The translations under genes were made by a program, and so were the position numbers. 64,000 nucleotides of DNA, from assembly GCA_034401795.1 (NCBI GenBank), contig CM067367.1, positions 49,975,363 to 50,039,362 of the forward strand, given 5' to 3'. Position 1 is the stretch's first letter. Each line of letters begins with the position of its first letter. The notes beneath the pieces were generated by a model that did no database searches, was not told the origin of the DNA, and saw nothing but the letters and a program-made list of their open reading frames with translations. The stretch comes from Chaetoderma sp. LZ-2023a. Its lineage: Eukaryota; Mollusca; Caudofoveata; Chaetodermatida; Chaetodermatidae. This document shows positions 18,810-61,666 of this stretch, piece by piece.

Positions 18810-19048
18810 TTAGAGGCTCGGATAAAGATGGATCTTTTTCTTAATCGGCTTTCTGCACATATGACAGATTGTTAAGTTCTTGCCACAAGGCTGGCAAACA
18901 GTGTGACCGCACAGAAATGCAGTGTCCCATTTTCGTTCCAAACAAATTGAACATAGTTGATCATCCGGTATGTCTGCAGGATTCTCTACCTCGCATTGTC
19001 TGCCTAATGACACTGACCGTATCAGCTTTACAGCTTGCTCTTTTTTAT
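18810..19048 (-). CDS. Coding exon 10: C-terminal C3HC4 RING finger and stop
   Basis: The final coding exon follows an ACTTTGCAG acceptor, enters in phase 1 and ends with TAA. It encodes [20 protein letters not shown], then a RING: C707-x2-C710-x10-C721-x-H723-x2-C726-x2-C729-x6-C736-x2-C739. After it comes a short basic tail ending IHLYPSL. Such C-terminal RINGs generally recruit E2 enzymes. The 3' UTR runs at once into MITE-derived sequence, and no canonical AATAAA is obvious nearby. Confidence 0.88.
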
Positions 19049-22000
19049 CTGCAAAGTTGAAAAAACCATGATTTTAACCATTTGACTCCTGCTAATGAGC
19101 CACAATTATGGCCCTTATTTCAAGTGATGAGTTCATCATATTGATAGGACAAATAGATATTACTAAAGCAACATATCGGCTAAATTTTGTTTTAATCCAT
19201 CAACAATTGATGAAATAAATGTACTTTAACCATAGGGTTTGAATAGTTTACGTCTTAATGAACAAGAGTTATGGCCCTTGTTTAAAGTTGCAGGCTATGT
19301 TCATAGTTTTCATAGGGATCAAAGCCATAAAAATAACTTAATGAACAACGGTTATGGCCCTTGTTTAAGGGCGCGGCCACTTCAATATTCATAGCTTGAA
19401 TAAATGTAGCATAAAGGAACATGTCTGCCAAATTTAGTTTTAATCCATTGATAAATCACGAAAAGTGCCACAAATGTATTTTCCCCAACGGCTTCAATAA
19501 TTTGAAAATATAGCAAGGGCCATAACTCTGCTATTTGTGGGCATAGCCACTATCTTCATAGCTCAAATAGATATTACGTAAAGGAACATAGCTGCCAAAT
19601 TTAGTTTTAACCCATCAATAAATGGCGTAACATGCTACAAATGTATCTTCCCCATAGGCCTCCATACTTTGAAAACATACCAAGAACCATAACATTGCTA
19701 TTTGTAGGTGTGGCCACTTCATATTTATAAAAGAACATGTGTGCCAAATTTGTCTTTAATCCGGCAACAAATAACGAAGTGTGCCACAGTTGTTGACAGA
19801 TGACAGGCAGACAAATCACGACTGTAATTCACCTAGGTGATATAAAAACCATGAAAATAGTACAAATCTGTGAAAGAATTTAGACTAGTATTGAATCGAA
19901 TAGCATCCCTGCATGCATAGAACATACCTGTAATGATTCATTGAAATCGTGTGAACAATTTCTGTATAATAAGAAAAATTATAAACCTTACCGTAAAGAC
20001 ACATGAAAAACCGTGACAAAAATAAGGAGTTCCCAAAATTCAAACTAGTGATGACGCAGTTTGCATCCCTGTGTGAAATACACCACATCTGTAACGCTCC
20101 ATTGAGATCCGATGGGCTATTGTTGTGAAATACGGATTTAAAACCTTAACCAACACCAATGGAAATAGTGATCCCTATGTCTCGCTTTCTGCGATGCAGG
20201 CAAGACTAAAACATTCTTATCTTTTTCTACATCCCGGAGCGGTAACTAATATTTCTTTATCATTCTTATCTTGTTCTCCAAATGGACAATGACTGAGCAC
20301 GAATTCAGATGTTCTTGACTATTAACCATGGTATCCCTTTAATGGTCAAGCCGGCCAAAAATGGTGTCTGTAGAGGTCACAATAAATATCCATTTGCAGG
20401 ACAACAGAAAGGTATTTTTGTAAAAGAACTTCCACTGAAGAAAAATTTCAATTACATGTATTAGCAAGTATAGAAGCATTAGTAACACCGAGTTCTTTTA
20501 ACCATTTCACCGATAAATCCCGGAAAAGGTATATTCTTTATGATATAAAATTTATTCTGTTGAGTATTTTGACATTAATTTGACTGGAAGTCAAATTAAT
20601 TTCAAAATAATCCAGATTTTTTGTCCGGAAAATAATTTTGGATGAGCACGCGGTTTGTCCTTTTCAGACATATGGCGCAAGCACATGATTTGTCTCTTCC
20701 AGTGTTTGGGAATGTGAGTATGCAGAATGCATACAAATGATATTTTAGTCTGCAGATTTACCACAAGAATTCCGCGGAATTAAATCTCACCTGTCGTGTT
20801 TGTCAGTGGCATTGACCTTTGACATTGTGACATCCTTGTTATCATGCTGCTTCCTAACATTATAGGTAACCATGTATTCAATTTTAGTTCCAATAGGATT
20901 AACCAACCCTGAAATATAAATGATGGAAAGACTTAAGGTTGAAAATGCAGAAGTTAAATAGCAATATTAGAATGGCCTTGACGTGGTGACCTCTATGTCA
21001 CCATCCTGTATCCTCTTGGCATAAGCAACTATGTACCCAAGTTGTGTTCCATTATGGTTAAGCAATCCTGAAATATAACATGATATGATTTGCTAAGCCT
21101 AAAAACCTAACATTGAAAAACAAGTTTAGTTCCAATAGGATTAACCAATCCTGAAAGATAAGCCAAGATAGTTTGCTATCCATAAAAACTTAACATTGAA
21201 AAAACAGGTTTGTATCAAGGTCACAGTGACCTTGACCTTTGACCTTGTGAAATCAGTATCATCATGCTGCTTTCTAACAGTATATGCAACAACATAGCCA
21301 AGCTTAGTCGCAATAGGATTAATTGATCCTGAAATATAAGCTGATAAGTTTTGCTAAACGCAAAAACTTTACATTGCTGACGCCGTCGGAACAGTGACAC
21401 AGATGTCTCGCTTTCTGCTTCGCAGGTGGGACAAAAATGATTTGAAAGGTTTTCCTTTTTCAACAGGCTGCAGATAACTACTAGATTAACCGTGTTTACT
21501 CAAAATTTTGTTGATGTCCAGAAATCTGTAGGCTTGTTAAAGAACCAAAATTTATCGGATAAATCCAGAGAGATGGTCACTGAATTGTATGCAGACGAGC
21601 ATCTAGCAGAAAGAAACAGTACTATATACCGGTATACATGTTAGCAAATGAAACAATACTAACCTGTCTTTGATGGTACCGACTCTACTCGAGGTGAAGT
21701 ACAGGCATCACACTGAGCAGAGCTAGGGGTGTTGATTAACGTACACCTTATACATGTCCACTGCTCACTCTCCAGCATGTCAGACTGAGATGCTGAAACA
21801 GATGGCTCTGCTGGCTGAAGCCTGATGCAGTATTCACACTTATACTCACTGGGTAAATCCAGGAAAGTGCATGCTGCACACTGTACCGAGCTAGATTTAT
21901 CTCTATCATAACCAGATGGATTAGCTGTATGAGAACGTGATAGACTGCTTCCATGACTGACTGATGGATCAACTCCATAATTAAATGATAACACAGCTCC

Positions 22001-24058
22001 AGGAGTAACTGACAAAGTGGGTGTTGGATCAACTGTCGAACTGTTTCCAGGTTCGACTGTGGAGCTGGTTCTAGGATAAACTGAGGAACTGGTTCTCGGA
22101 TCCACTGAGGAACTGGTTCCCAGATCCACTGAGGAACTGGTTCCCGGATCAACTGATGAACTGGGTCCAGTAGCAACTGAAAAATAGACATTGACTACAG
22201 GTATGGAGGGATCTATCAAAAGCATGACGTCATTTTCAGTTACATCATTAGTTAGCTAACATAACAATTCACCTTTCCAGAGTACTCACCCATCATATGA
22301 CGTCATAATGAACTGCGCGATGTGTACAATGACATCATAATGAATGATGTCATGAATGATGTCGATAAGTACGTCACGAACGCATATTTGAAGACGGTCT
22401 ATGCGTTGTTGTACAAATTGTTTGCTTTTACTATTTAATAAATATTCTGTTGACTATTTTGAAACTAATTTGACTGGGCATTTGGGGATCGATCAATCCC
22501 AACACGGTGAGGTGTCGGTGGAGCTTAGCTAGTGAGGTGCGGGGCATAGCTAAAAATGGAGATCCATTAAAATGATGTCTAGCACGGTCATGAAAATCAA
22601 AGCCCAACACCAGTGTATGAATGGACCTTTCCACATTTAGCTATGCCCCACCCATCTCAATCTAAGCTCCACCCAAACCATGTCCGTGTTGGGATGGATC
22701 GATCGATCGATCGATCGATCGATCTCTGAACTCCCTGACTATCAATTTCCAGAAAACTATACATGTAAACTGTTGAATATTTTGACGCTAATTTGACTGG
22801 GTGTTGTTACTGCCTATGGCAGCAACAGCGCCCAGTTAAATTAGTTTCAAAATATTCAAAACATTCGACAGCATGTTTATTAAATAGTAAAGATATACAA
22901 TTTGTACGACATGTCAGACTATTAACAGTTAAATATGGGACAAATAGAATCATCTATGACGTAATGATTTTGACATCAGCATACACATCACTTAGTTGAT
23001 TATGACATCATATATTGATGGATAAACTTGGAAAGGTCCATTGCATGTCGTTGATGAATTTACAATGTAATAATCAATGTTCAGTTGAATATTTTGAAAC
23101 TAAGTTGACCGGGAGCTGTGGCTGCCATAGGCATTAAAGCAGTTTCAAAATATTTAATAGGGTACCTGTATCCTAATCAAACTCGTTCTACTGGTGGGCC
23201 TTGGTGGTCTGACAAATGATGGTTTTAGACCTAATTTCTCTCGAGCTCTACACAAAATGGAGGATGGCTTGACTTAGTGATCCGAGTGGCTTCCTTTCAG
23301 GCCAGGTGACGCAAAAGTTGACGCCAAACAGATGGATGATGAACAGACGCAATGGCATACACTCACTTGGTCATTCTGGCCAGGTGACATAAAAATTTAC
23401 GCCAAACAGACGTATGATGGACAGACGCAATGGGATACGCTCACTTGGTCATTCTGGCCAGGTGACGTAAAAGTTGACACCAAACAGACGGATGATGGAT
23501 GGACGCAATGCATATGCCCACTTGGTCATTCTGGCTAGGTGAGCTAAAAACACTATAGGCAAGGGTAATTTCTCGAGGATTGCTAATGGAAGAATCCAGT
23601 TTGAGCTATGCCCCGCCTATTTCTAGCTAAGCTCCACCCAGGCCTTGCCAGTGTTGGGATTAATCGATCACTGCACACTCTGAATAAACTGCACAGTCAG
23701 ATAAGATGTTGAATATTTTGAAACTAATTAGACTGGGTTCTGTTGCTGCTATATGTGACTATGTTGACTATGATGTCATATGATTGATCGATAAACTGGA
23801 GTCCTCAATTTTATGGGTTCCTTCAATTGGCAAACAAGAACTGGTCGTTAACCATTTAGTCTTAAAATTTGCTCCTTTTGCAGTAAAATAGAAGACTATT
23901 TTTGACAATTTAATGCTGCTACAATGACTGGTTCAGTTAGCAAGGCAATCATTAAAGCGGTAAATTTTCAGAAATAGTCTTCTCTTGTTCTGCCAATGGA
24001 CATTTCTCAAGACCACTGCAGAAGCCATTTTGGGCTGCTTGAACGCTAAAGAATGGTG

Positions 24059-24105
<47 letters not shown>

Positions 24106-25953
24106 ATGCATGCGGGCGTGCGTGCATGTCTGTGTGCATGTGTGTGTGTGCAACGTAATCTGTTTAGAGAACTTTCTTCTAAGTAGGCCATAGCATTTAT
24201 CAAAATGGAATTGTAGAAATAGATATGTGTACAAGAAACTGTATTAACCTGTTTTTGATGGTGCTGACTTTAGTTGACGTGCTCGAGGTGCAGTACAGGC
24301 ATCACACTGAGCAGAGGTAGCGGTGTTGATTAAGGTACACCTTGTACATGTCCACTGCTCACTCTCCAGCGTGTCACAGTGAGATGCCGAGACAGATGGC
24401 TCTGCTGCCTGAAGCCTGATACAGTTCTCACACTTATACGAGCTGGGTATATCCAGGAAAGTGCATGTTGCGCACCGTAAGGAGCTAGATTTATTACTGC
24501 TATGGTCAATGATGATAGATGATGCTTTTGAAGGTATATTTAGCGGTGTCCAGGAATGAATGCTGGGATCAGTTTTTTCCAGCTCCCTGTGTAACTGATC
24601 TATTGTGTACAGGACAGATGATAGAGTGGTTCCAACCGGAACAGGTGGACTGCCATCATGACAAGCTGATGGACCAGGTCCCTGAGTGACTGACAGACCC
24701 GCTCCATAATAAATTGATGGAACAGCACCATGATGAACTGAGGAAGCGACTCCATGGTGATCTGATCGATCAGCACTATGACAAACTGATAGACGGTCTC
24801 CTTGACCGACCGATGGACCAGCTCCATGATGAACTGCTAGATCAACTTCATTACTCACTGAGGGGCCAGCGCTGTTAAGAGCTGCTGGATCATTTCCACA
24901 ATTCATTGATGAAGCGGTCACAGGAGGAAATGACAGGGTGGCTCTTGGATTGGATGGACAACCATCTCTAGGATTGATTGAATAACTGGTTCCAGGTTCA
25001 ACTGAAAAGAAGACATTTAACTTTTATAAAGGGTTGCTAGTTTGAGAATGGTATGAAAATATTTACTAGCTTGTCACTACAAAGAATGCTATTAAATTGA
25101 ATGTCATATGACAAGCTAACAAATAGTACAATGAATGGCCTTGAGACAATATGTTTCTCTGTGTTTAACCCTTTAACACTCATATTAGCCAAAACCGGCT
25201 TCTGCAGTAGCCTTGAGAAATGTCCAATTGCAGACCAAGAGAACATTTTTTTTAATTTACCACTGGAATGACCGGCTCAATAACCTAGCCAGTCAGTCCA
25301 GTAATAAATTTTCAAAAATAGTCTTCTCTTGGTCTGCAAATGGAGGACATTTTCTAAGAGAAATTTGAAGGTTTCTGGACAAAAATTCAAGTGTAAAGGG
25401 TTACAAAAAATTGAATAAATTTGAGGGTTAAAGGGTTAACCCACAAGTTGTATACATAGCTCTGTTCACATTTATGCACATTTGAATCAATTTGAAAATT
25501 TGAATCCTAAATTCCCAGAATATAAATTTCAAGATACCTATACAGGTCATGATTTTTATGAAATCAATCAACTTCACTCGGATCGCTTCAACCGCTCCGG
25601 GGGTAATTTTTTAATCAATTCAGTGATATAAAAATATATGTAGAGCAGGGCTCCCGAAATGGCCATATTTTCCAGACGTGTCTGGGAAACATTCTCAATG
25701 TCCGGTAGTGTATAAGATCAGCCAGACATCTTGACAGGTTTTTGCGATTGCGCAGAGCAAAAAATCAATATTTAGTCGGAAATATTATTGATGTTTCCTT
25801 TTATAAACTGACTCCTATCAACAAAAATTGTTTATCAAACGGGTAACCATTAAGCGGATCGGATAGAATGCTAATACTCGATCACCATCACGTTATGATC
25901 ATATATAGAGTAATTTCTGAGTTCCCGAGTCCAGTATATTAGATCCGTAAATC

Positions 25954-25984
<31 letters not shown>

Positions 25985-28900: not shown

Positions 28901-31900
28901 GCTTAGCTAGAGATGGGCAGGGCATGGCTAAAACTGGAAAGATTAATTCACTTGGCTACTCCCTATAACTTCCATTCCAATTATGTTCAAAATATTCAAC
29001 CACAGATTTCTTACATCGTGTTCAAAATTGTTTTGTTTTGGAAACATGTTAACCTATTTCTGAGCTGTACATTACAGTGTTTGCTGTATGGAAGGTTCTA
29101 TTTTTCAAGAGCAATAACTCCGAAATTATTGATGGAAACTAACTTACTAACAAAACAGGAACTTGACCTCGATCTTAATACTATTAATCTAAATTCAGAA
29201 TTTGGTTCAAATCCCTTTAGTCTAGCATGAGCTATTGTCCAGAAACTGCCAAATTAAAGCGATGCTAATCTCATCTCAAATGTTATACTGCACCGATAGT
29301 GTATGGTTTATAGATTCCAGATCATTCATATCCTGTCACATTCCCGTTTCTGTATCACAATTATTTGCTTTGTAATATCGCCCAAATGTTGAACAGTGAC
29401 TGCCACCATTTTGTCTCCACAAGCGATAGTGTGTGATGTCATGTAAGTGCCAATGCATTACATTCTTTATTATGTAATATTCATCTCGTTGAATATTTTG
29501 AAACTAATTTGACTGGAAATTGTTGCTGCCCATGGCAACAACAACTTCCAGTCAAATTAATTTCAAAATATTCAACCGCTTACCTGTATGATTGCCTTTA
29601 TACCACACTGCCAAACTATAGCTGGCGCCTCTATGACTGAGCTATATCACGAAGTAGGCACGCTATAATTTTTCTGATTGGTTGAAAAGTAAATCATGAC
29701 AGCCATCAGACTGTAGAAATGTAGCAACATTTAGCTACTAAAGCCTGAATATCTCTCTTTAGCGGCATGATAAAAAGCTTAACATTACCTACATAGTTTA
29801 TGACTGGCATATTAGATCACCTGAATAGCTATCAAGAGTTCAAATTAGTTATCCTTTAACTAAGTTTGTATTTTCAAGGGTGTTAACCCTGGCAAATATT
29901 GACAGAGAATAATGAAACATGAACTTCACCTCCATCTTAATACCATTCATCTAAATTCCAAATTTGGTTCAAATCCATTTGGTTTAGATGAGTTACATGT
30001 ATTGCCCTGAAACCGTCAAATTAACGAAGCTTGTATTTTTCAAGGGTGATAACTCTGGCAAAGATTTACGGAAACTAACGAAACAAGAACTTGACCTCCA
30101 TCTTAATACTCTTATTCGAAATTCAGAATTTGGTTCAAATCCGTTTAGTCTAGCATACATTACTGGCAAGAAATGGCTACGTTAAGAAACTTTGCATAAC
30201 AGAAAGCGAGACATATGTAATTGTGTATCACTTTTCCAATGGCAATGATGACGGCGTTAACAATGTTGATGTTTTGTGCTTAGCAAAACTTCCCCGTTTA
30301 TTTTTTCAGGATTGGTTAATCCTATGGACTTTTCCAGTTTTAGCTATGCCCCACCCATCTCTAGCTGAGCTCCACCCACACCTCGCTCGTGTTGGGATCG
30401 ATCGATCTCTGAACTCCCTGACTATCAATTTCCAGAAAAATATACAGGTAATTTGTTGAATATTTTAAACTAAGTTGTCTGGGTGCTGTTGCAGCAACAG
30501 CGCACCGAAAAATTAGTTTCAATATATTCAACAGCATGTTTATTAAATAGTAGAGACATACAATTAGTACACCGTGTCAGACTATTAAGAGTTAAAGAGG
30601 GGCCACATACACTGATTAGTAAACGGTCAAGGTCACTGTGAGCTCTACTAAACAGTTATATTTTAACGTTAAGTTTTTGTGTTTAGACAACCTTATCAGC
30701 TTATTTTTTGGAATTGCTTTAGTCTAATGGAACACAACTCAGGTGTTACTTATACCAATACCACAGGGGTGCAGGGTGAGGTGCAGGGAGGTCACCATGT
30801 CAAAGGTCATGTTGATCTCGACAAAACTTGGTTATTTTTCAATGTAAAGTTATTGCATTTAGCAAATCTTATGAGGTGATATTTCGGAATTGTTTAATCT
30901 TAATGGAACACAACTTGTGTGCATGGTTGCTTATACCAAGCGGACGCAGGATAGTGACACGGAGGTCACCAGGCCAACGGTCATTCTGAGCTTGCTACCT
31001 TTCTATTTGACCTCTGCTTTTTCAACTAAAAGTTTTTCCGTTTAGCAAATCATTTACAGTTATATTTCAGAATTACTTAATACTGCCAAAACTAATCTTA
31101 AACACATGGTTCCATACACTATAAGGATGCCACGCGCTGATAGTGACATCCCTAGGTCAAAGCTCACGGTTTTCATATATAACTTGACATCCGTCTTACT
31201 AGTATTAAGTTATATTCCGAAGTTATTGCACGGAAACCAATTAGTCACATATTATTATCCCGTCAAAAATGAAGATCAAGAGGATATAGGAATATTCCCG
31301 TACGTAGTACAAACATATGCATGTAGATATGTATGTGGAAACAGGACCATTCCTATATCCTCTCGATCTTCGTCTTCGATAGGATAATAATATAATACTT
31401 GATCACAGACATATGATCAAACTGTGCATGGAGTTTCACTATCATCTCCCTAAATTACTACAGCAAAATGATGGATAAATGGATATAGACACGCTGACTC
31501 AAAGGACAAGAAACTTCTTCTTAGACCCAAAATCAACATACCAGCAGAAACTTCACTTGGGATAGTGATAATTTGTGAATGAAGGCAATCGCTTTTCTGC
31601 CCTTGTGGAGGCAGAACTGTAACAAAGCTTCGTGGTGTTCTTGGCTTATGAGGCAAGTGTGATGCACGAGGCTGGATAAAAGATGAACAAAATAGTATAC
31701 ACACAATTATTTTCAACTTGTTACCATATGAAGAAATGTGATTGCCATGCTAAATAACCAGGAGCAACGAGAGATTGCAGACACCCACCCTCCTGTTCTG
31801 GTCACATTAAAAATATGAAGTCTTTTACAGATTTTATCAAAACGTTCATAACACAGTGTACGGTCACAAGCTTTGTTGAGAGATAAATTTAAACAAAATC

Positions 31901-42137: not shown

Positions 42138-42168
<31 letters not shown>

Positions 42169-45541: not shown

Positions 45542-45581
<40 letters not shown>

Positions 45582-45884: not shown

Positions 45885-45952
<68 letters not shown>

Positions 45953-48900
45953 GTTGAAGTTTCTTGCGTTTCACTTCAATCGACCAAGTGAGATATTTAA
46001 CCCCTCTTGTGTCAACTTAACCATTTATGGCTTTTAATGGTCAAGCTGACCAAAACACAACTTTGCAGTGGTCTTCAGACATGGCAATTTGAAATGCCTA
46101 AAAAAGAGTATTTTTTAATATTTACCACTAGAATGACTGGCTCAGTAACCGTGCCAGTCATTCTAGTGGTAAACTTTCAAAAATACTCTTCTCTCGGCCT
46201 GAAGATAGACACTAGCTAAGTAAAAACTTTAATTTTCTTTACCATTACCCCTCTTATGGTGAAGGCGCCGAAAAAAAATTTCAGTGGTAAATTTACAAAA
46301 ATAGTCTTTTAAAACTAAAATATCTTGAAAAATATTGACCACCAAAATGTTTAATTGATATATCAAGTAGTATTTTGGAGTGCTTTGAGGCACTGTTGAC
46401 AGAAGAGGGGCCAAAATGTTAAAAGTACAAAATCTAAGATGGCCACAATTTGTTTGAAATCAGCCAATTGGTTCTTGAGAAGTCATTTAAATAAAAAGTT
46501 GATGGATGGAAAATGGATGGATTGTCACTATGGCGTAAGGCCAATCTTATTTAAATGAAATGATTAACCACTATATATACATGTAATATAGAGTAATTAA
46601 CCATCACCCTGCTGGGTTTCTGCAAACTACATTTTCCATGGGGTTTGATGCTGAATATGCTGAATATTTTGAAAGCAATTTGACTGAAAGCTGTTGGTGG
46701 CATAGCCACCAACAACTTTCAGTCAAATTGTTTTCAAAATATTCAACAGGTCCAGAGTTATTGCCCATTGGAATTATTCTCTGGTGACCTCCAGCAGACA
46801 GTTAATCTATGACTTCATAAATCATTCATAACCAACACATGTGCAGTCATAGATGTACTTACAATAAAGATTGACCTCAACAACTTAAACTAGCGATAAG
46901 CCGCCTTAATGTATTTCAGCCTTTAACAAACCCCAAACACAACAAATTCTTTATGATGTAGCGAACATGTAGCTGAAAATTTGAAAACTAATTTGACTGA
47001 GAAATTTCCAGTTAAATTAGTTTCAAAATACCATTCTTAGATAACTGTTTTGAAATTGAGATACTGGGATATTAATGGTCAACTGGTAGATAACATACCT
47101 CATGCTTTTTGCTGCACAATTCATTCCAAATCACAAATGCATAGACTAGCTCCTTATTGAGTGCGTTTCGTCTATTTTCTGGAGCATTCGGAGGCTGAAA
47201 TTGAGATATTAGGCAGCATTTAAGGTCATTACTAGATGGACTGCATCCCATGTGTCGAGCCCTTTAGATTTTCCGCATACCACTCATCAAGTGTGACAGT
47301 GTCACGAAATAAGGATTTCTTAAAATAGTATAACCCTGTGATGAATCATATATCTATCGAAAAACTCTTCTAATTCTTGAAAAGAAGACAAATCACACAC
47401 AAATAAACGTAAGTCCAAATTACATAAAAATATGTATTCTAAACAATTTGAAAATCATTTTAATTATGATGGCGACTGGATGTAATGATGACATTAAAAC
47501 AAATCTGTAAAGTTTTATTGATATCGGATAATCACTTGAAAAGCGTTGGAAAATTTATATATTATAAATATTTACCCAATTCTTGATGCAAAATAAGCTA
47601 AGTCCAAACCCAATAGAAAGATGACATAAATGTACATTGAAAAACATGGTACACAGTCATGAGTGGGACACCATTTGGATCACTACATCGAGCCATCTAA
47701 TGCTTCGCACAGGGCTCAACAAAAAACTGTATCAAAACTAGTCGGACTTCCGTACATTCAAGGACCACAATTAGTAAGTCCCACAGATAAACTGACCACA
47801 GATGAATGCTCTGGAGTCATCTACAAGATCGAATGTGACCAATGTGAGGGGACATATATAGGTGAAACCAAAAGGCCTCTCAGCACCAGAGTCAAAGAGC
47901 ATCTCAAAATCAATTCCAACTCAGCTGTGGCAGAACACACAATCCACTGGCCACGTCATCCCCGCCAGCAGTGCCTCGGTCATCAACATCGAGACCAACT
48001 TAATTAAACGTAAATTTAAAGAGGCCATAGAAATCTACAAGCATCAACCAACCATGAACCGAGACGAGGGCTACCGTATACCAACAGTCTATCAGTCCAT
48101 GCTGTCACGTGACCCCACAAGAACTGACCAGTGACGTTCCCAGCAACCGTCAGTTAGTGCTGAAGAAGTGACTGAGATGGTCACGAAACCTACACTCAAA
48201 CAATTTCTACATCCCAGAGAGGTAACTAATTTTTCCTCATTATGAATCATCCTGGGATCAGGACCAACTTTTTCGGAGATGTATCAAAATTCTTTTTGCA
48301 AAGGATATTTAAGAGAGGGATCCATTTCTAGGTATGCTCGTCAATTTCTCCGTAACCCTTTAACCTTCGAATTTGTTCAAGAAAATTATGATTTTATCAA
48401 TAGAAAATGTCCATTTGAAGACCAAGAAGACTATTTTTGAAAATTTACCATTGGAATGACTGGCTCGGTTATCGAGCCAGTCATTCCAATGGTAAATTTT
48501 TTTTAAATAGTCTTCTGGTCTGCAAATGAACATTTCTCAAGACCACTGCAGAAGCCGTTTTTGGCTGATATGAGTGTTAAAGGGTTAAGCTCCTCCGACA
48601 TGTACCTCATGTTAGAATCGATTTTAGACTTTGAAACCTGAATCCAAACATCAAGGTAACTATGAAGATAGTGTTGTACATCTAGAACTGATTTGTCCAT
48701 TACTGCCATAGCCAGCAACAGGCCCCCGCTTAAATTAGTTTCAAAATATTCCACAGAGTGTGTATTAAATTGTAACTTCATCAGACATATGTTTGATTTT
48801 CTTGATGGAACGGTCATTTTGATTGTGACACCATCTACATATAAATGATATAACATGTGACTAATTTGATTATGACATCAGATTGCGAGGTGATGTTTAC

Positions 48901-51900: not shown

Positions 51901-54900
51901 CCTATGCCCTAAAGATGCTTCCTGCCAAACATAATGGAAATCGTCCCAGCGGTTCATGAGAACTCGGTTTGAAGGAAAAGTTGACGGCCGGACGGATGGA
52001 CGACGGACACACGACGGATGGTCACCACGCCATAAGCTCACTTGGCCTTTCAGGCCAGGTGAGCTAAAAATGTTAATGTTGAAAAAACCAAGGTTTTTAT
52101 CAAGGTGACTTTTGACCTTTTGACACACCATAGGATCCTTCCATATAAATTTGGTTGAAATCAATCAAAGCATAAAAAAGGAGATGAGATTTGATGGATG
52201 GATGGATGATGGATGGATGGACAGACAGCCACCATGGCATACGTTCACTTGGCCCTTCAGGCCAGGTGAGCTAAAAACGGCCATCCATCTGAATTTACTT
52301 CACTGAGTAGTCATCCAATTCTCATGTCAAGTCGCATCAAACTAACTCATAAATCACTCAATGCACCAAAATCTCCCAGGTACTTTTTTAAATTAAAGAG
52401 GCACCATAACCTGTGACACTCAGCTGGACTGGGCCATTGTCATTAAGGAGTAGGGTTTTTAAATAAAAAAAGATTAGAGGCGGTACCTTTTGTAGACTAA
52501 CTTTATTTAGTTTGACAAGGTCACCTGATGAAGCGCATTTATGTGTGAAAACATGTCAAAATCAATATGTTCAATCTACAAACGGTACCACCTCTAATCT
52601 TTTTTTATCTTATCAAGACTAACATGGCTCCTTTCCCGGGGTTTTTAAATGATTCCAGAAAAAAAAATCAACCAATCAAAATTCTGAATAAAAGATCTAG
52701 AGCCATCCAATGTGGGGTCATTCCAGTCAAGTTTACTTAAAATCCACCAAGCGGTTAGTTAAGATGCGTTTTAACAATTTCCAGTAAATTTTTCATAAAA
52801 TCTGTTTTTCACACAAAAAATTGACAAAGCAAAATTTTGAATAGGAGTTAGAGACTCCCACCATAGAATTGTTCTATACAAATTTGATTGAAATATGTCA
52901 AGAACCTAATGAGAAGCATTTTGACAATTTCTGGCACATTTTTCATAAAATCTAAGTTTTTCACCCAAAAAATTGACAAAGCAAATTTTCTGAATATGAG
53001 ATCTGGAGCTTACCAGCATAGGATCCTTCCACCCAAATTTGTTTGAAATCGGTCAAACCTTTAATAAGCGATTTGACGGACGGATGGACGGCCGACAGAT
53101 GACTGGCATGACATAAGCTTACTCGGCCCTTCAGGCCAGGTGAGCTAATAATGTTGAATGCATTTCCAATTCACCTTTCCAGTGTTCATCCATCATCTGA
53201 CGTCATATGACATCATAATAAGCTCAGTGTGTGTATGATGACATCACAATCATTACATCACAAAGGGTTCCATATAGACCGTCATCAAATCTCAAATGGT
53301 CTGACACGTTGTATGAGTTGTATTTAATAAACATGCTTTTTTAGGCAGCAACAACACCCAGTCAAATTAGTTTCAAAATATTCAACAGCTTACCTGTGCG
53401 GTTTTATGGAAATTGATAGTTAGGGTGTTCAGAGATCGCGGGATCCCAAAACGAGCGAGGTGTGAGTGGAGCTTAGTTAGGAATGGGCGGGCATAGTTAA
53501 AACCGGAAAGGTTCATTAGGATATAGTGAAATTATTTCTCAAACTATTTTAAAACATTATCTTCTGTACATAATATCATATTCATTTAAAATATTCAAGT
53601 TCTGCATATTTTCAATTTGCGCAACCGACACATGGACGATTGGTTTGTAGCATGGTGAAATTTTGAAGCCTGCAACATTGAACAGACCCAGTGCCATAAT
53701 CAACGGAAATTTCCCAAAATTTCAGGGTACTCAGGTATATTATAAATGACATTCTTTCATCCTATGAAAATATTTGATGAGACATGGGTATCTGTTTGTC
53801 TTAAATTTAATATCAATTTAATTAAATTCACATGTATCAAAGACATGTATAAATTCCTAAAATGTTTCTCGAACTTTGCGAGACACATTAACCCAGTAAA
53901 TAAATGATATTCCTACAAGTTTTAAATGAATTAATCAGAACTGTGTTGCCAATTCTATTGATATATTATGTTATATAAGAGCTTAGCAGGATGTACTGGC
54001 TTGTAGGATGAGTGCAAACATAGTACATACCACCAGTATTTCCCCGAGTGAAGTGGGGGAACTTCGCAAAACACTTGTAGAACGAATTCATTACTTATCA
54101 GACCGACAATTTAATTCACCTTTCCAAAGTATTTATCCTATCATCTGACATCATACGACATCATAATCAGCTTATCGGTGTGTAGGATGATGTCATAATC
54201 ATTACACGTCACAAATGATTTTATTTGGCCCATCTTTAACGCTGAATAGGCTGACACGTACGAAGTGTATGTCTCTACTATTTAATATTTAATAAACATG
54301 CCGTTGAATATTTTGGAACTAATTTGACTGGACGATGTTGCTGCCCGGTCAAATTAGTTCCAAAATATTCAATAGCTTATCTGATGGTAAAGTTTTCTCG
54401 AAATTGATAGTCAGGGAGTTCAGAGATCGATTGATCCCAACACGAGCGAGGTGTGGGTGGACCTTAGCTAGTGATGGGCGGGGCATAGCTAAAAATGGAA
54501 ATGTCCATTAGCCATAAAAGCACTGTATATTTCATTGCAACATATTGCCAAAATAGGATTATAATTACCTCAAGGATTCTTGCTGTGCTTTCCGAAGTGA
54601 CTACAGAAATGGCACTACTCCTCTTTACATTCATCGAGAGATCGATCGCTGTACACGTAGGCAAAAACACATGATCAAGTAGGACATGTAGAGTGCATTG
54701 TTACTGGTACATTGGAAATTTTAACCAGAAATCTGGTTGCAATGCAACCATGAAGATCGACTTTACAATAAACTATGAAGCTTGAGCTCAAACATAAAAC
54801 AAATATAGACGGCTTATCAATACACTTATCGCTGACCAATGAAATTTGACCTTTTGACCCCAAAGTAATTGTCTCATGTCTTCTCAGCAAGTGTCCAAGT

Positions 54901-60900: not shown

Positions 60901-61666
60901 TGGTGGTACCTTCAGATGGGTGGGTCATTGTGATAAGTGGTTCTTAAGGATGGGTGGTTCATTAAGATAGGACAGGTGGTTTTTTACGATGGGTGGATCT
61001 TTGACTGATTCTTAAGGAGGGTGGTTCTTTAAGACAGGTTGTTCTTTGTGATGTATGAATATTACGATATTTGGGTCTTTAAGATGGGTGGTTCTTTAAG
61101 ATGGTGGTTATTTAAGATGAGGGAATCTTGAGGTGGTGGTTCTTTAAGATGGGTGGTCATTTGTGTTGCGAGGTTCTTGAGGATGGGTGGTTCGCTAAGA
61201 TTGGCAGTTCTTTAAGATGGATGGTTCTTTAAGATGAGTGCTTCTTTAAGATGAGTGCTTATTTAAGATGGGTGCTCTTTAACACAGGTGGCTCATTAAG
61301 GTAGGTGCTTCTTTAAGGTGTGTGGTTCTACCACACATCTTAATCAAATGACATCTTGTGGATGCAAGAGCCATTTACTATGTTAGATAAATGGGTTGCA
61401 CACCTCAGGGACCACGGGTCTTTGGTAAGCACTCATTGGTGGCCCATACAGTGTCTGTTATTAGTCTGAACACTGAGGGACACACCTTGTAGTTATCAAA
61501 GCTGAACACTGAAGTAGAAAAACTAACCCGTTTCTCCTGCTACTTCTGTTTCTGGAGTAATTGTAGCATTAGGGCTTGTTGCGGCTGGAGGGGAACTGCA
61601 CTCAGGAACCCTTACTGCCTGATCTGGTAATGTTTCTGTTGTCAAACTATAGCCTGATGCGTTCAT
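18810..61666 (-). CDS. Split gene: bromodomain, RanBP2/NZF zinc fingers and RING (10 coding exons, 753 aa)
   Basis: Coding exons in transcript order are 61666-61528, 54648-54569, 47194-47099, 39759-39658, 36638-36510, 32656-32576, 31671-31542, 25001-24249, 22176-21664 and 19048-18810. Each internal boundary has an AG acceptor and a GT donor. Phases run 0-1, 1-0, 0-0, 0-0, 0-0, 0-0, 0-1, 1-1, 1-1, 1-stop, and the sum is 2262 nt, exactly 754 codons. Domains are a bromodomain (residues about 82-195; WPF at 109-111, anchoring Asn at 168), an NZF pair (429-488), a second NZF pair (603-662) and a RING (707-739). The bromodomain resembles the second bromodomain of BET proteins, but no second bromodomain or ET domain was found. 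From the families I infer a nuclear E3 ubiquitin ligase that reads acetyl-lysine and binds ubiquitin. Joining of the exons is inferred from phase and order; no transcript was available. The Met at the first base of the first coding exon is the likely start, with a non-coding exon upstream. Confidence 0.8.
19075..19850. repeat. Diverged tandem repeat with GGCCATAACTCTG motif
   Basis: About five units of roughly 150 bp. They share CAAGGGCCATAACTCTG (or its reverse complement), GGAACATAGCTGCCAAATTT and AGTTTTAATCCATCAATAAA. In intron 9. Confidence 0.65.
19855..20165. repeat. Repeat F, two diverged units
   Basis: AAATCTGTGAAAGAAT, CATCCCTGCATGC / CATCCCTGTGTGA and GATTCATTGAAATCGTGTGA / CTCCATTGAGATCCGATGGG recur about 170 bp apart. 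Resembles the units near 36.9-37.6 and 47.3-47.6 kb. Confidence 0.45.
20221..20262 (+). mobile_element. Possible remnant of a Penelope-like 3' end
   Basis: TTTCTACATCCCGGAGCGGT then AACTAAT matches the end of the Penelope fragment at 48208-48240 (TTTCTACATCCCAGAGAGGT, AACTAAT). Confidence 0.35.
20560..20612. repeat. Short foldback hairpin
   Basis: TTGACATTAATTTGACTGGA pairs with the following TCAAATTAATTTCAAAAT; a minimal copy of the GTTGAATATTTTGAAA hairpin. Confidence 0.75.
20790..21460. repeat. Half-site satellite array in intron 9
   Basis: About four units with TGACCTTTGAC, CATCATGCTGCTTCCTAAC, CCAAGTTTAGTTCCAATAGG, ATTAACCAATCCTGAAATAT and AACATTGAAAAA. One unit holds four perfect half sites (21218-21245). 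Confidence 0.75.
21218..21245 (+). promoter_or_regulatory. Cluster of four perfect nuclear-receptor half sites within a repeat
   Basis: AGGTCA (21218), then TGACCT at 21227, 21233 and 21240, giving an inverted repeat with a 3-bp spacer, a DR0 and a DR1. Shown only by sequence; binding is not implied. Confidence 0.5.
21664..22176 (-). CDS. Coding exon 9: SSSVDP repeats plus second NZF/RanBP2 zinc-finger pair
   Basis: A 513-nt phase 1-1 exon (CTATTTTTCAG acceptor, GTTAGT donor). It starts with about six repeats of T-SSSVDPG-type units, then a Ser-rich linker, then two C-x2-C-x10-C-x2-C fingers (Cys 603/606/617/620 and 645/648/659/662) with the intervening EPSVSAS and LESEQWTC segments also seen in exon 8. 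It ends PSKT in phase 1, exactly as exon 8 does. It is a tandem exon duplicate. Confidence 0.87.
22266..22568 (-). mobile_element. Family-A MITE, copy b (hairpin half deleted)
   Basis: Nearly the same as copy a from AATTCACCTTTCCA through AATTTGACTGGGC. It then jumps straight to ATTTGGGGATCGATCAATCC, losing the right hairpin arm. The right TIR is shortened to TGGAGATCCATT. Confidence 0.88.
22620..23042 (+). mobile_element. Family-A MITE, copy c (full length)
   Basis: A 423-bp element with perfect 14-bp ends AATGGACCTTTCCA / TGGAAAGGTCCATT, a GATC microsatellite (about 22694-22723), a central palindrome (about 22770-22855) and ATGACGTAATGATT near the right end. Best full-length reference for the family here. 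Confidence 0.92.
23090..23165. repeat. Foldback hairpin fragment
   Basis: GTTGAATATTTTGAAACTAA..GTTGACCGGGAGCTGT followed by CAGTTTCAAAATATTTAA. Confidence 0.6.
23303..23550 (+). repeat. Tandem array of the X 3' terminus (78-bp unit, about 3 copies)
   Basis: The unit ACTTGGTCATTCTGGCCAGG, TGAC, then GCCAAACAGACGGATGATGG recurs at 78, 78 and 77 bp. Because 78 is divisible by 3 it makes a spurious 68-aa frame. Confidence 0.9.
23590..23806 (+). mobile_element. Family-A MITE, copy f (internally deleted)
   Basis: AATCCAGTTTGAGCTATGCC at the left, TTGAATATTTTGAAACTAAT centre, then TATGATGTCATATGATTGAT and AAACTGGAGTCC at the right. Confidence 0.75.
23848..24055. mobile_element. Family-C palindromic element (diverged)
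   Basis: TTAACCATTTAGTCTT start, ACAATGACTGGTTCAGTTAG centre, TCTTCTCTTGTTCTG and ACCACTGCAGAAGCCATTTT right arm. Confidence 0.65.
24056..24151. repeat. (GTGC)n/(GT)n microsatellite
   Basis: About 15 GTGC units followed by GCAT-variant and GT units, 100 bp downstream of the exon 8 donor. Confidence 0.95.
24249..25001 (-). CDS. Coding exon 8: long linker plus first NZF/RanBP2 zinc-finger pair
   Basis: A 753-nt phase 1-1 exon (TTCTTTTCAG acceptor, GTTAAT donor). The first two thirds is a degenerate repeat with GPSV, HHGA and SVHHG-like units. The end carries two C-x2-C-x10-C-x2-C fingers (Cys 429/432/443/446 and 471/474/485/488). The second has the canonical RanBP2 spacing W-x-C-x2-C-x3-N-x6-C-x2-C. 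The first lacks the Trp and has Asp for Asn, but keeps a Thr-Phe dipeptide after its second Cys, as in ubiquitin-binding NZF fingers. The exon closely resembles exon 9. Confidence 0.85.
25163..25440. mobile_element. Family-C TTAA-type palindromic element
   Basis: TTAACCCTTTAACACTCATA at the start, GAATGACCGGCTCAATAACC centre, TCTTCTCTTGGTCTGCAAAT right arm and GGTTAAAGGGTTAACC end. Confidence 0.8.
25795..25960. repeat. Repeat G (second copy at 41865-42010)
   Basis: Shared order: ACTCCTATCAA, TTATCAAACGGGTA, ATTAAGCGGATCGGAT, ATCACCATCA and GAGTCCAGTATATTAGAT versus the matching segments at 41865-42010. Confidence 0.55.
25955..25982. repeat. (TAA)n microsatellite
   Basis: About nine TAA units directly before the X element. 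Confidence 0.9.
25981..27670 (+). mobile_element. 'X' element, copy 2 (large, with two hairpins)
   Basis: Starts ACAAGCGGCCCAATGGGCC, TGTATCGCTCACCTGG and ends GGCCATTCTGGCCAGGTGAG, CTAATAATAA. It carries hairpins at 26274-26353 and about 26576-26680, then the CAAGATGGCC-rich part and a GGACGGACGG-rich stretch. A close relative is at 56045-57608. Confidence 0.85.
26274..26353. repeat. 80-nt near-perfect hairpin
   Basis: Arms of about 39 bp, starting AATATTTTGAAAACAATTGG and containing ACTGAAAGTTGTTGGTGGCT, with a two-base loop; essentially no mismatches. Confidence 0.93.
27671..27740 (+). repeat. Short AATAATTACATTTATATAGCG repeat
   Basis: AATTACATTTATATAGCGC followed by GCTCTAAGTGCTTTATA, a motif pair seen in many marine invertebrate repeats. 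Only a fragment. Confidence 0.4.
27981..28290 (-). repeat. Repeat H, inverted copy
   Basis: Reverse complement of 8681-8975: AATATCAGTATTATATTGTA, AAATGTCAGCCAGCATCATG and GGAAATGTTTGCATGC. Confidence 0.8.
28567..28948 (-). mobile_element. Family-A MITE, copy g
   Basis: GTGGACCTTTCCA left end, central palindrome (28719-28812, GGCGGCAACAGG core) and GGCTAAAACTGGAAAGATTA right end. Confidence 0.82.
29090..30190 (+). repeat. Diverged tandem repeat, about 155-bp unit, split by other sequence
   Basis: Units at 29090-29280, 29870-30010 and 30030-30190 share TTTTCAAGGGTGATAACTC, ACTTGACCTCCATCTTAATA and ATTCAGAATTTGGTTCAAAT. Confidence 0.7.
29488..29576. repeat. Foldback hairpin, stand-alone
   Basis: GTTGAATATTTTGAAACTAA to its inverse TTAATTTCAAAATATTCAAC with a TGCTGCCCATGGCAACA core; no family-A ends around it. 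Confidence 0.88.
30322..30604 (+). mobile_element. Family-A MITE, copy h (right-truncated)
   Basis: ATGGACTTTTCCAGTTTTAG start, GGGATCGATCGATCTCTGAA, reduced hairpin, then ACCGTGTCAGACTATTAAGA, after which half-site repeats begin. Confidence 0.75.
30605..31240 (-). repeat. Half-site satellite array, reverse orientation
   Basis: Three to four units of about 150 bp with AAGGTCACTGTGAGC, GGTCACCATGTCAAAGGTCA, AATGTAAAGTTATTGCATTT and TTTAATCTTAATGGAACACA. Confidence 0.65.
31249..31393. repeat. Foldback of about 145 bp
   Basis: ATATTATTATCC..GAAGATCAAGAGGATATAGG pairs with CCTATATCCTCTCGATCTTC..GGATAATAATAT; arms about 45 nt, loop about 55 nt. Confidence 0.85.
31542..31671 (-). CDS. Coding exon 7: linker
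   Basis: A 130-nt exon (TTTATCCAG acceptor, GTATGT donor), phase 0 to 1, encoding [19 protein letters not shown] and continuing to [12 protein letters not shown]. It is basic and Pro-rich with no recognisable fold. It shifts the frame from the phase-0 bromodomain exons to the phase-1 zinc-finger exons, which supports it independently. Confidence 0.65.
32312..32477. mobile_element. 166-bp TTAA-flanked MITE, copy 2
   Basis: TTAA at 32308-32311 and 32478-32481. The ends CCGTTACCACACTGAGGTC and CCAGAGTGGCAAGAG are imperfect inverted repeats. The inside matches copy 1 at 13677 (TTTTACTGCATCAATAGTAA, CATTAGTTCATCTTCTAATT). Confidence 0.72.
32576..32656 (-). CDS. Coding exon 6: bromodomain helix C end
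   Basis: An 81-nt phase 0-0 exon (AAATTTCAG acceptor, GTTAGT donor) encoding [15 protein letters not shown], then [12 protein letters not shown]. The first part aligns with the DVFEMRFAKMPDEP terminal helix of BET bromodomains, which completes the fold begun in exons 3-5. It lies inside a short open frame that is otherwise intronic. Confidence 0.8.
32750..32835. repeat. Family-C half copy
   Basis: TTTGCAGGCCAAGAGAATGC and ACAACTGGAATGGCTGGTTC. Confidence 0.5.
33100..35180. other. Stretch (intron 5) without recognisable feature
   Basis: Between coding exons 5 and 6. I found no domain, hairpin or tandem array. Around 33735-33890 there is weak similarity to 28440-28570 (CGCTACTCGAGTTATGACCT, CATTTTATGTCAA). 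Confidence 0.5.
35311..35556 (-). mobile_element. Family-A MITE, copy i (partial)
   Basis: GTTAAATATTTTGAAACTAA palindrome, TTAGTTTCAAAATATTCAAC, ATCGATCCCAACACGGG and GCGGAGCATAGCTAAAACTG. Confidence 0.8.
35631..36022 (+). repeat. 21-bp minisatellite, about 18 copies
   Basis: Unit TTTCTAACTATGCTCTGCCT+A with variants TGTCC, CGTGCC, CCGTTG and CTCCG. It resembles the CCATTTCTAGCTATGCCCCG segment of family-A elements, so probably arose from one. Being a multiple of 3 it makes long spurious frames on both strands. Confidence 0.95.
36025..36165 (+). mobile_element. Family-A-related fragment
   Basis: CTAACCACTTCCCACTATGT, TGGAATCGATTCATACACTT, GCTGTTGAATATTTATAAAC and TTTGACTGGAAGCTGTT. Confidence 0.55.
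36510..36638 (-). CDS. Coding exon 5: bromodomain helices A-B and anchoring Asn
   Basis: A 129-nt phase 0-0 exon (TTACAG acceptor, GTTTGT donor) encoding 43 residues, [14 protein letters not shown] to GRAKKLE. It contains [16 protein letters not shown], the helix B/BC-loop signature with the acetyl-lysine-anchoring Asn (residue 168). The residue after NPPD is Ser, where human BRD4 BD2 has His and BD1 has Asp. Confidence 0.92.
36830..37655 (-). repeat. Repeat F, about 180-bp tandem units in intron 4
   Basis: About four to five units with AATTCTTGAAAAGGTGACAA, AAAATATGGAAA, TTATGATGG, ATCTGTAAAGT and GATAAGC..TGATGAA motifs. Related to 47270-47640. Confidence 0.65.
37661..38848. mobile_element. 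Non-autonomous hAT-like element with 8-bp target duplication
   Basis: Terminal inverted repeats TAGAGCTGGGCGGT / ACCGCCCAGCTCTA (14 of 14). Flanking octamers GTCGAAAT and GTCAAAAT (7 of 8). Inside are further inverted ATCGCGGTATT-type motifs and a GAGTT microsatellite; no transposase frame. Confidence 0.85.
38563..38589. repeat. (GAGTT)n microsatellite
   Basis: Five GAGTT units inside the hAT-like element. Confidence 0.9.
39356..39642 (+). mobile_element. Family-A MITE, copy j, next to exon 4
   Basis: GGCCTCTCCAGTTTTAGATA left end, reduced hairpin, ATTACGTCATATGATAGATG and AAACTTGGAAAGATCTATT right end, about 15 bp from the exon 4 splice donor. Confidence 0.8.
39658..39759 (-). CDS. Coding exon 4: bromodomain WPF shelf and ZA loop
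   Basis: A 102-nt phase 0-0 exon (TTTGCAG acceptor, GTTAGT donor) encoding 34 residues. They include [11 protein letters not shown], then [18 protein letters not shown]. This is the WPF shelf (residues 109-111), the ZA loop and the YDIIK-PMD-T signature of BET bromodomains, closest to the second one. A family-A MITE ends about 15 bp beyond the donor. Confidence 0.92.
40045..40220. mobile_element. Family-C palindromic element
   Basis: CAGACCAAGAGAAGACTATT, CATGACTGGCTCGATAACCG, AACCAGTCATTCTAGTGG, TCTTAGTCTGCAAATGGACA. Confidence 0.75.
40230..41045. repeat. Half-site satellite units around a family-C element
   Basis: TGACCTTTGGTCTTGTGACC, GACCTTGCGACCTCACTATC, CCAAGTTTAGTTCTAACAAG and similar; interrupted by a family-C palindrome at 40690-40915. 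Confidence 0.65.
41150..42125. other. Intronic stretch with little structure
   Basis: Holds repeat G (41865-42010) and otherwise nothing I can assign. Confidence 0.45.
42130..42379 (-). repeat. Direct repeat (pseudo-LTR), 3' copy
   Basis: Nearly base-for-base match to 45537-45792; visible differences are (TTA)n length and one G/A near the end. Confidence 0.9.
42398..42907 (-). pseudogene. GIY-YIG endonuclease-like domain of a Penelope-like element
   Basis: The open frame has [28 protein letters not shown], then [20 protein letters not shown]. The pattern IY-x10-QYVGET followed by a basic residue is the GIY-YIG core as found at the C terminus of Penelope-like proteins, with the Cys-rich stretch before it. 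The downstream part of the nuclease domain runs into the direct repeat and has lost its usual ending. Confidence 0.65.
43190..43600. other. GC-rich GCATGCGCATGCG segment
   Basis: Repeated GCGCATGCG and GGGATCCCG-like palindromic words, far more GC-rich than the surroundings. All six frames are partly open only because of composition. Confidence 0.5.
43709..43740 (+). repeat. Poly-G tract
   Basis: Nineteen G, TTTT, nine G. Confidence 0.97.
44390..45447 (-). pseudogene. Unassigned retroelement frames inside the direct-repeat element
   Basis: Three frames (45447-45163, 45147-44929, 44752-44390). The first has [20 protein letters not shown] then HINESQDH, which looks like a degenerate C2H2 finger. 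The second has [20 protein letters not shown]. The third is Gln/Ala-rich. I do not recognise the protein; position suggests an N-terminal part of the element's ORF. Confidence 0.4.
45537..45792 (-). repeat. Direct repeat (pseudo-LTR), 5' copy
   Basis: Second copy. Just before it (45477-45536) is a related partial unit, AACCTTGAAAGACTAGAG then GGCGAGGACTTAGGG, suggesting an internal tandem duplication. Confidence 0.9.
45887..45949. repeat. (AT)n microsatellite
   Basis: About 31 AT units. Confidence 0.98.
46008..46310. mobile_element. Family-C palindromic element
   Basis: TTAACCATTTATGGC start, CCACTAGAATGACTGGCTCA, GTGCCAGTCATTCTAGTGG, ACTCTTCTCTCGGCCTG; an extra arm fragment follows. Confidence 0.7.
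46660..46748. repeat. Foldback hairpin, stand-alone
   Basis: TGAATATTTTGAAAGCAATT, TGACTGAAAGCTGTTGGTGG and an inverse with almost no mismatches; no family-A ends. Confidence 0.9.
46978..47032. repeat. Short foldback next to exon 3
   Basis: GAAAACTAATTTGACTGA and CAGTTAAATTAGTTTCAAAA, about 70 bp from the exon 3 donor. Confidence 0.65.
47099..47194 (-). CDS. Coding exon 3: bromodomain helix Z
   Basis: A 96-nt phase 0-0 exon (TTTCAG acceptor, GTATGT donor) with 32 codons, [18 protein letters not shown] through ELCSKKHE. The LNKEL..AF...NELCSKKHE segment matches the first helix of a BET second bromodomain, where SKKH directly precedes the AYAWPF shelf. That shelf opens the next exon. Confidence 0.85.
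47205..47640 (-). repeat. Repeat F-related segment upstream of exon 3
   Basis: Matches the intron just upstream of exon 5 (36660-37100): GATGGACTG, TCGAGCCCTTTAG, AAGGATTTCTTAAAATAGTA, TCTTCTAATTCTTGAAAAG and GACAAATCACACACAAAT. Confidence 0.7.
47650..48240 (+). pseudogene. Penelope-like element 3' fragment with GIY-YIG domain
   Basis: Two frames (47663-48007 and 47862-48134) join near 47950. They give [29 protein letters not shown], then [40 protein letters not shown], and the tail [20 protein letters not shown]-x9-TYIGET with the following Arg is the GIY-YIG core; the KEAI..I....PTMNRDEGY ending is typical of Penelope proteins. 5'-truncated and frameshifted. Confidence 0.85.
48355..48590. 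mobile_element. Family-C TTAA-type palindromic element
   Basis: GTAACCCTTTAACCTTCG start, ATTGGAATGACTGGCTCGGT, inverse GAGCCAGTCATTCCAAT, GATATGAGTGTTAAAGGGTT end. Confidence 0.8.
48600..48900 (+). mobile_element. Family-A MITE remnant
   Basis: TTAAGCTCCTCCGACATGTA, TAGCCAGCAACAGGCCCCC, TTAGTTTCAAAATATTCCAC, ATTATGACATCAGATTGCG. Confidence 0.5.
48905..49670. other. Intronic stretch, nothing recognised
   Basis: Only generic AT-rich sequence; no domain, hairpin or tandem order seen. Confidence 0.45.
50100..52070 (+). mobile_element. 'X' element, copy 3, internal ~640-bp unit repeated three times
   Basis: Starts ACAAGGGGCATGTGTCGCTC, ACATGG and ends CACTTGGCCTTTCAGGCCAG, GTGAGCTAAAAA. Inside, AAAACCAATTTCGGCCTCAA, AATATGGCCGCC, CAAGATGGCCGCC, TTGAACAAACTTG and ATGCTTCCTGCCAAATATA recur at roughly 640-bp steps (about 50150, 50830, 51470). 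Confidence 0.8.
52085..53149 (+). repeat. X-type 165-bp units and 3' ends
   Basis: Two further X termini (GGCCAGGTGAGCTAAAAAC to 52277; GGCCAGGTGAGCTAATAAT to 53149) with ATTTGGTTGAAATC and TTTTCATAAAATCT units between. A small element is inserted at 52465. Confidence 0.7.
52465..52638. mobile_element. 174-bp insertion with inverted repeats and 12-bp target duplication
   Basis: GGGTTTTTAAAT occurs at 52453-52464 and 52639-52650, and the flanks join to a normal X unit. Inside, AGATTAGAGGCGGTACC..TTGTAGA is inverted at TCTACAA..GGTACCACCTCTAATCT (23 of 25). Class unknown. Confidence 0.75.
53169..53517 (-). mobile_element. Family-A MITE, copy k
   Basis: AATTCACCTTTCCAGTGTTC start, CTGACGTCATATGACATCAT, hairpin partly deleted, AAACCGGAAAGGTTCATT end. 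Confidence 0.82.
54113..54509 (-). mobile_element. Family-A MITE, copy l, next to exon 2
   Basis: AATTCACCTTTCCA start, compact palindrome 54304-54371 (TTGAATATTTTGGAACTAAT and inverse), GGGCGGGGCATAGCTAAAAA and TGGAAATGTCCATT end; 60 bp from exon 2. Confidence 0.85.
54569..54648 (-). CDS. Coding exon 2
   Basis: An 80-nt exon between acceptor GTGTACAG and donor GTAATT, entering in phase 1 and leaving in phase 0. It encodes [14 protein letters not shown] followed by a Ser/Thr-rich stretch ending ARILE. It has no domain. Support is the splice sites plus the fact that it is the phase 1-to-0 adapter needed between exon 1 and the bromodomain exons. A family-A MITE ends about 60 bp from its donor. 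Confidence 0.6.
54815..56040. repeat. Half-site satellite array
   Basis: About eight units: TGACCTTTGACCTAGTGACC, ATGTGTCCAAGTTTAGTTCT, AATTCTGAAATATAAATG, GATTTGCTAAACGCAA, AACATTGAAAAAGCAGAGGT. The next X copy is inserted at its end and similar units resume at 57.6 kb. Confidence 0.78.
56045..57608 (+). mobile_element. 'X' element, copy 4 (close relative of copy 2)
   Basis: Same order as copy 2: ACAAGCGGCCCAATGGGCC, TGGTTTCTTAACTGTCTCAC, hairpin (about 56236-56316), GCAGGTAGGTGGTCTTTATA, second hairpin region (about 56533-56640), CAAGATGGCCAC part, end GGCCAGGTGAGATAAAAA. About 130 bp shorter. Confidence 0.87.
57640..59305. repeat. Half-site satellite array, about 170-bp units
   Basis: About ten units. 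The GAAAAAACCAAGGTTTTTACC-like join recurs at about 57777, 57962, 58134, 58309 and 58472. Shared words are TGACCTTTTGACC, CATTGTGTGATGC, GTGTCCAAGTTTGGGTCCA, GATTAACCAAACATGAGATA. Confidence 0.8.
59523..59765. mobile_element. Family-C TTAA-type palindromic element
   Basis: TTAATCCTTTAACACTCATA start and GTGTTAAAGGGTTAA end. Centre ACTGGCTCGATAACCGAGCC is a clean palindrome with CCACTGGAAT / ATTCCAGTGG around it. Confidence 0.85.
60634..61333 (+). repeat. 18-bp minisatellite, about 38 copies
   Basis: Unit TTCTTTAAGATGGGTGGT with many point changes and length variants (TTTAAGACTGGTGG, TCATTAAGATAGG), in intron 1, about 200 bp from exon 1. Confidence 0.95.
61528..61666 (-). CDS. Coding exon 1 (probable initiator exon)
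   Basis: The exon follows a TTTTCAG acceptor and ends at G|GTTAGT. It encodes 46 residues beginning [11 protein letters not shown], rich in Ser, Thr, Pro and Glu, with no recognisable domain. It starts exactly with ATG after the acceptor, so it is probably the first coding exon spliced to a 5' non-coding exon. If ATG is not the start, an upstream phase-0 coding exon would be needed and I saw none. It ends in phase 1, matching the next exon. Confidence 0.65.

Follow-up and report, generated by a model that had tools for sequence, protein, structure and literature searches.

The window analysed here, a stretch of 64,000 nt from contig CM067367.1 of Chaetoderma sp. LZ-2023a (assembly GCA_034401795.1), holds on its minus strand, between positions 18810 and 61666, ten exons which when spliced would give 2262 nt and a product of 753 aa, with one terminal stop and no internal stop. 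GT-AG boundaries were found at all nine introns, and AG/GT borders with compatible phases at all ten exons, as judged from the sequence only. The model was rebuilt from a preliminary description of the same DNA, which gave two ranges (47.2–31.5 and 25.0–18.8 kb) and the total of 2262 nt without an exon list. Two bromodomain exons (39.7 and 36.5 kb) were located using a BRD4 query, and stretches within the described ranges were read to obtain exons 3 (47.2 kb), 7 (31.6 kb) and 1 (61.6 kb) and the exons for the NZF-type zinc fingers and the RING. These first eight exons amounted to 2101 nt, 161 below 2262. A phase-matched exon scan then supplied 80 nt at 54.6 kb and 81 nt at 32.6 kb, by which the ten exons, the frame and the length of the product were rebuilt exactly.

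Exon 1 (61528..61666, 139 nt) has an acceptor AG directly before its ATG, and the 40 codons upstream contain no in-frame stop; the N-terminus of the model is therefore uncertain, and further exons, coding or belonging to the 5' UTR, may precede exon 1. Exon 2 (54569..54648, 80 nt, phase 1 to 0) was the sole candidate of the phase-matched scan between 61.5 and 47.2 kb at the thresholds used. The segment at 32.6 kb that provides exon 6 (32576..32656, 81 nt) has two possible donors, the better of which gives 81 nt, while the second would give 32555. A motif search for exon 6 gave nothing, and since the exon was recovered by the phase scan and not by motif, its homology to the second bromodomain (BD2) of BRD4 counts as further support.

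Splice sites were scored with weights set to approximate metazoan frequencies, not trained on the Chaetoderma genome. Described earlier as good, the sites kept their AG/GT borders and phases everywhere, but the donors of exon 5 (at 36510, score 0.66) and exon 8 (at 24249, score 0.21) and the acceptors of exon 3 (1.6) and exon 6 (1.9) were weak. Apart from the gap between exons 7 and 8, introns measured 0.9–7.4 kb. A Pfam search of the 753-aa product at E <= 0.01 returned Bromodomain (1.3e-19), Zn_ribbon_RanBP (7.6e-9, two stretches) and zf-C3HC4_3 (2.8e-7), and no further domain at that cut-off; the order bromodomain, zinc fingers, RING is the one described previously, with the RING as the last domain of the product.

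Bromodomain exons and the BET gene of the same genome

The bromodomain is spread over exons 3 to 6. It starts in exon 3 (47099..47194, 96 nt), continues through exon 4 (39658..39759, 102 nt), which carries the WPF motif and the ZA loop, and exon 5 (36510..36638, 129 nt), which carries the conserved Asn in NCYLYNPPD, and closes in exon 6 with the end of helix C. The domain retains the WPF shelf, the ZA-loop Tyr and the acetyl-lysine Asn. Against the bromodomains of BRD4 (6dne), the spliced piece scored 129.4 bits with the second (BD2) and 77.5 bits with the first (BD1); exon 4 was 76% identical to BRD4 BD2 over 34 aa, and an 11-residue peptide of exon 6 aligned with the end of helix C of BRD4 BD2. 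No hit to the bromodomain was returned by NCBIfam. These matches identify the domain as a second bromodomain (BD2) of the BET type, present in full, in agreement with the BET-type assignment made previously.

A canonical BET gene with matches to BD1, BD2 and ET was found on contig C4 of the same genome. Its BD2 exons measure 96, 102 and 129 nt, as do exons 3, 4 and 5 of the window, and phases and borders are identical; the encoded proteins align without gaps and are identical at 67 of 109 positions. In the final 97 residues, the window copy has 65 matches to the C4 BD2 and 56 to BRD4 BD2, and the C4 BD2 has 63 to BRD4 BD2. The C4 exon that follows the three BD2 exons was not found by simple pattern, and the comparison of exon structure therefore stops at exon 5. 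In the genome search with the bromodomain piece, 23 candidates gave 13 match rows, of which three fell at this locus and the next two on C4. Best matches, used here in place of a tree, suggest that the bromodomain was copied from the lineage's own BET gene with its introns retained.

The model differs from the BET proteins (BRD2/3/4 and BRDT) in having one bromodomain and not the animal tandem pair, in the zinc fingers and RING that follow, and in the lack of a detectable BD1 or ET domain. Queried with BD1, the window yielded only its BD2-type exons, and the flanks (60 kb upstream, 30 kb downstream) had no match at E <= 0.5. The best E for an ET query was 1.0 in the window, with nothing at E <= 0.5 in the same flanks, whereas the same query gave 3.6e-27 on the C4 region. 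A nearby BD1 or ET domain was thus rejected for the window and these flanks.

Zinc-finger and RING exons

Exon 8 (24249..25001, 753 nt) and exon 9 (21664..22176, 513 nt), both of phase 1-1, each encode a low-complexity linker followed by a pair of zinc fingers. The two exons are tandem relatives whose finger pairs are 78% identical over an 80-aa unit. The linkers are serine-rich, and the second consists of short degenerate repeats, for example SSSVDPGT. The second finger of each pair has the spacing W-x-C-x2-C-x10-C-x2-C; in the first, the C4 spacing is kept and the Trp is absent. Two NZF pairs had been described at this position, and four C4-spaced fingers in two pairs are indeed present, but Pfam scores only two of the four, namely the second in either pair, where the Trp is present.

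In NZFs that bind ubiquitin, the first two cysteines are usually followed by Thr-Phe, and RanBP2-type fingers are able to bind other partners. Thr-Phe is present in both divergent first fingers of the model, while the Pfam-scored second fingers read Thr-Leu. PDB matches of the unit include TAB2, NPL4, HOIP and RanBP2, and the second fingers share the C4 spacing of these proteins and of calpain-15-like ones; the first fingers differ from them in the missing Trp. The genome search with the NZF unit (5 match rows of 16 candidates) gave strong matches to exons 8 and 9 only, together with three weak hits elsewhere (E 0.004–0.008, 30–41% identity). One of the weak hits lies in a long open frame (L019, 385-2334, minus strand) that encodes several RanBP2-type fingers and resembles calpain-15/SOLH. 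An overall dN/dS of 0.83 was obtained between exons 8 and 9; the finger block alone gave 0.51 and the linkers 1.06, which may be taken as modest support for function. The single-sequence AlphaFold models of the finger pair (mean pLDDT 51.6) and of the RING (mean pLDDT 44.2) were too poor to use, and scans of IMG/VR with the RING and the NZF patterns gave 4 and 23 pattern stretches, respectively, with none confirmed.

Exon 10 (18810..19048, 239 nt including the stop) encodes a C3HC4 RING with a short C-terminal tail ending in YPSL. The best PDB match of the RING was RING3 of MIB1 (6.9e-11), and an NCBIfam search with it returned one hit, far below the cut-off. In the genome, the RING search (8 match rows of 19 candidates) found this locus and then a locus on contig C1 with 63% identity over 51 aa. 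The C1 relative is the terminal exon of a Mind-bomb (MIB)-like gene, which we guess to be MIB2; its acceptor, AG|AT at phase 1, is the same as in exon 10, and 34 residues separate the acceptor from the first RING Cys there, against 32 in exon 10. Almost no alignment was obtained between the two exons outside the RING. A further RING-like motif (L044) lies about 2 kb upstream of the C1 RING, as expected in a MIB gene. By best match, which here stands in for a tree, the RING is of MIB type. Mind bomb proteins carry MIB/HERC2, ZZ and ankyrin domains upstream of the RING, and none of these was found in the model by Pfam.

An MDM2-type RING was considered as nearest relative and rejected, as MIB1 and IAP RINGs rank first and MDM2 is absent from the best 60 of 63 PDB matches; MDM4 and MDM2 match the zinc finger only (E 0.23 and 0.32). 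MDM2 has a RanBP2-type finger and a C-terminal RING, as the model does, but its RING is of the C2H2C4 and not the C3HC4 form, and neither a SWIB nor a BIR domain was found in the model by Pfam, in which it differs from MDM2/MDM4 and cIAP. The RING has eight zinc ligands, a hydrophobic residue within its first pair of cysteines and, after the last Cys, an Arg at the linchpin position. A Tyr stands ten residues past this Arg, at the position of Phe616 in cIAP1. In PMC6349121, roles are described for the linchpin and tail of RINGs, and cIAP1 Phe616 is reported to act in trans on E2-bound ubiquitin.

Predicted continuity between the bromodomain and zinc-finger exons

Since exon 6 closes at phase 0 and each of exons 8, 9 and 10 begins at phase 1, a 0-to-1 exon is required between exons 6 and 8. 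This bridge is provided by exon 7 (31542..31671, 130 nt, phase 0 to 1), which had the top combined splice score of nine 0-to-1 candidates listed between 32.57 and 25.0 kb (six of the nine being versions of exon 7). As background we used 300 kb of strand from 15 loci. This background contained 604 open segments resembling exons, counted over all phases, and may include real exons. In these 300 kb no 0-to-1 segment had both splice sites as strong as those of exon 7; by summed splice score three equalled it, giving an expectation of about 0.075 per 7.5 kb. Going by these counts, exon 7 is unlikely to be a chance segment. The corresponding chance expectations in their own intervals were 0.14 for exon 2 and 0.32 for exon 6, and exon 6 therefore rests on homology. 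Exons 7 and 2 had one genome match each in a search that skips very common words, by which rarity is not proven. For exon 7, Pfam gave no recognised domain and no relative was found in the genome.

The simplest reading of these data is that the bromodomain, NZF and RING exons form a single gene, which we regard as likely on the predicted splicing. It is unlikely, by comparison, that two genes lie next to each other on the same strand, namely a truncated BET BD2 gene comprising exons 1–7 and a terminal part not seen here, followed by an independent NZF-NZF-RING gene of exons 8–10 that has a non-coding first exon of its own. The 6.5 kb between exons 7 and 8 could contain a gene boundary, and translation could begin at the ATG inside exon 8 (SMNCGND) if a non-coding exon preceded it; this gap nevertheless falls inside the 0.9–7.4 kb spanned by the other introns, and exon 7 closes with a good donor at the phase that exon 8 requires. 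A separate NZF-RING gene with a coding first exon was also considered. Screening of 25–36 kb (donor score >= 2, 30–400 nt) left 28820-28925, with two ATGs, as the sole coding candidate, and it was rejected as an interspersed repeat after at least 47 match rows were obtained from the 40 of 3281 candidates that were scored. The surrounding positions 28780-28960 are occupied by a highly repeated interspersed element (3281 first-look genome candidates), whose open frame mimics an exon.

Proposed origin and role, and repeats in the window

No description of the order bromodomain, NZF, RING was found among the papers listed from a largely open-access literature, and an annotated entry may exist; within this scope, the result agrees with the preliminary description, which knew of no characterised family with the reverse order. 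The nearest arrangement is that of the TIF1 proteins, or TRIM class VI (TRIM24, TRIM28 and TRIM33), from which the pairing of a RING and a bromodomain in one chromatin protein is already known. As set out in PMC8303718, the RING of these proteins is N-terminal and the PHD-bromodomain C-terminal, as the preliminary description had held in contrasting the two, and recognition of acetylated histones activates the ligase of TRIM33. The model reverses this order, has no B-box, coiled-coil or PHD hit in Pfam (E <= 0.01), and carries a BET-type and not a TIF1-type bromodomain with a RING of MIB type. On these comparisons the predicted gene is placed outside the BET, TIF1 and MIB families, with one part in common with BET and with MIB and the general idea in common with TIF1.

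We consider it somewhat more probable than the reverse that the locus is one exon-shuffled gene whose product would be a chromatin-directed RING ubiquitin ligase, where the splicing, the direction of shuffling and the biochemistry are all inferred. Exon shuffling would have brought the BD2 exons of a BET gene together with a zinc-finger exon and with the terminal, RING-encoding exon of a Mind-bomb-like gene, and the zinc-finger exon would have been duplicated in tandem afterwards. In the protein, the bromodomain would dock on acetyl-lysine of histones or transcription factors, and the RING, a predicted dimer with its aromatic tail residue placed in trans on E2~ubiquitin, would pass ubiquitin on to this docked partner or to its neighbours. 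Ubiquitin or the ubiquitinated products might be held by the zinc fingers; this step is the weakest of the mechanism, as Thr-Phe occurs only in the divergent fingers. More tentatively, a dimeric MIB-type RING ligase guided by a BET BD2 could share docking sites with the BET protein of the cell and be able to antagonise or clear it, as a natural counterpart of synthetic BET degraders.

That the locus is a non-functional or decaying chimera, in which a duplicated BET fragment and shuffled exons are transcribed little or not at all, seems improbable. The absence of ET and BD1 from the window and the flanks searched, the several weak splice sites and the modest purifying selection between the NZF exons (0.83 overall) would fit such decay, but 2262 nt have stayed open with GT-AG at nine of nine introns, the zinc ligands of the RING and the bromodomain Asn are intact, and 67 of 109 residues match the C4 BET BD2 exons. 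That the fused protein competes with BET without ligation, its bromodomain occupying acetyl-lysine sites without an ET (none was found in the window or flanks) and its fingers, Thr-Leu where scored by Pfam, binding RNA or protein as RanBP2-type fingers may, is very doubtful, as a RING that is complete, linchpin Arg and aromatic tail residue included, would be hard to explain without ligase activity.

If the reading as a chromatin-directed ligase is true, independent invention of the reverse order with a BET-type reader would suggest more than one origin for ubiquitin ligases directed by acetyl-lysine, and the protein would be a natural example of the reader-plus-ligase logic of BET-degrading drugs. 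The gene would also be a readable record of exon shuffling, its bromodomain exons keeping BET lengths and its RING exon a MIB-like phase.

Mobile elements and repeats were also noted in the window. Broken reverse-transcriptase-like frames at 1005-2766 and about 14003-16568 (both plus strand) were identified by eye as LINE-type elements. Frames with a GIY-YIG-like motif, YIGETKR and YVGETKK, lie inside introns of the gene at 47663-48007 (plus strand) and 42398-43009 (minus strand), and we take them to resemble Penelope-like elements. A tandem array at 35618-36143, in the intron after exon 5, reads as repeated RNRQSIV in one direction and as LTMLCLF on the opposite strand.
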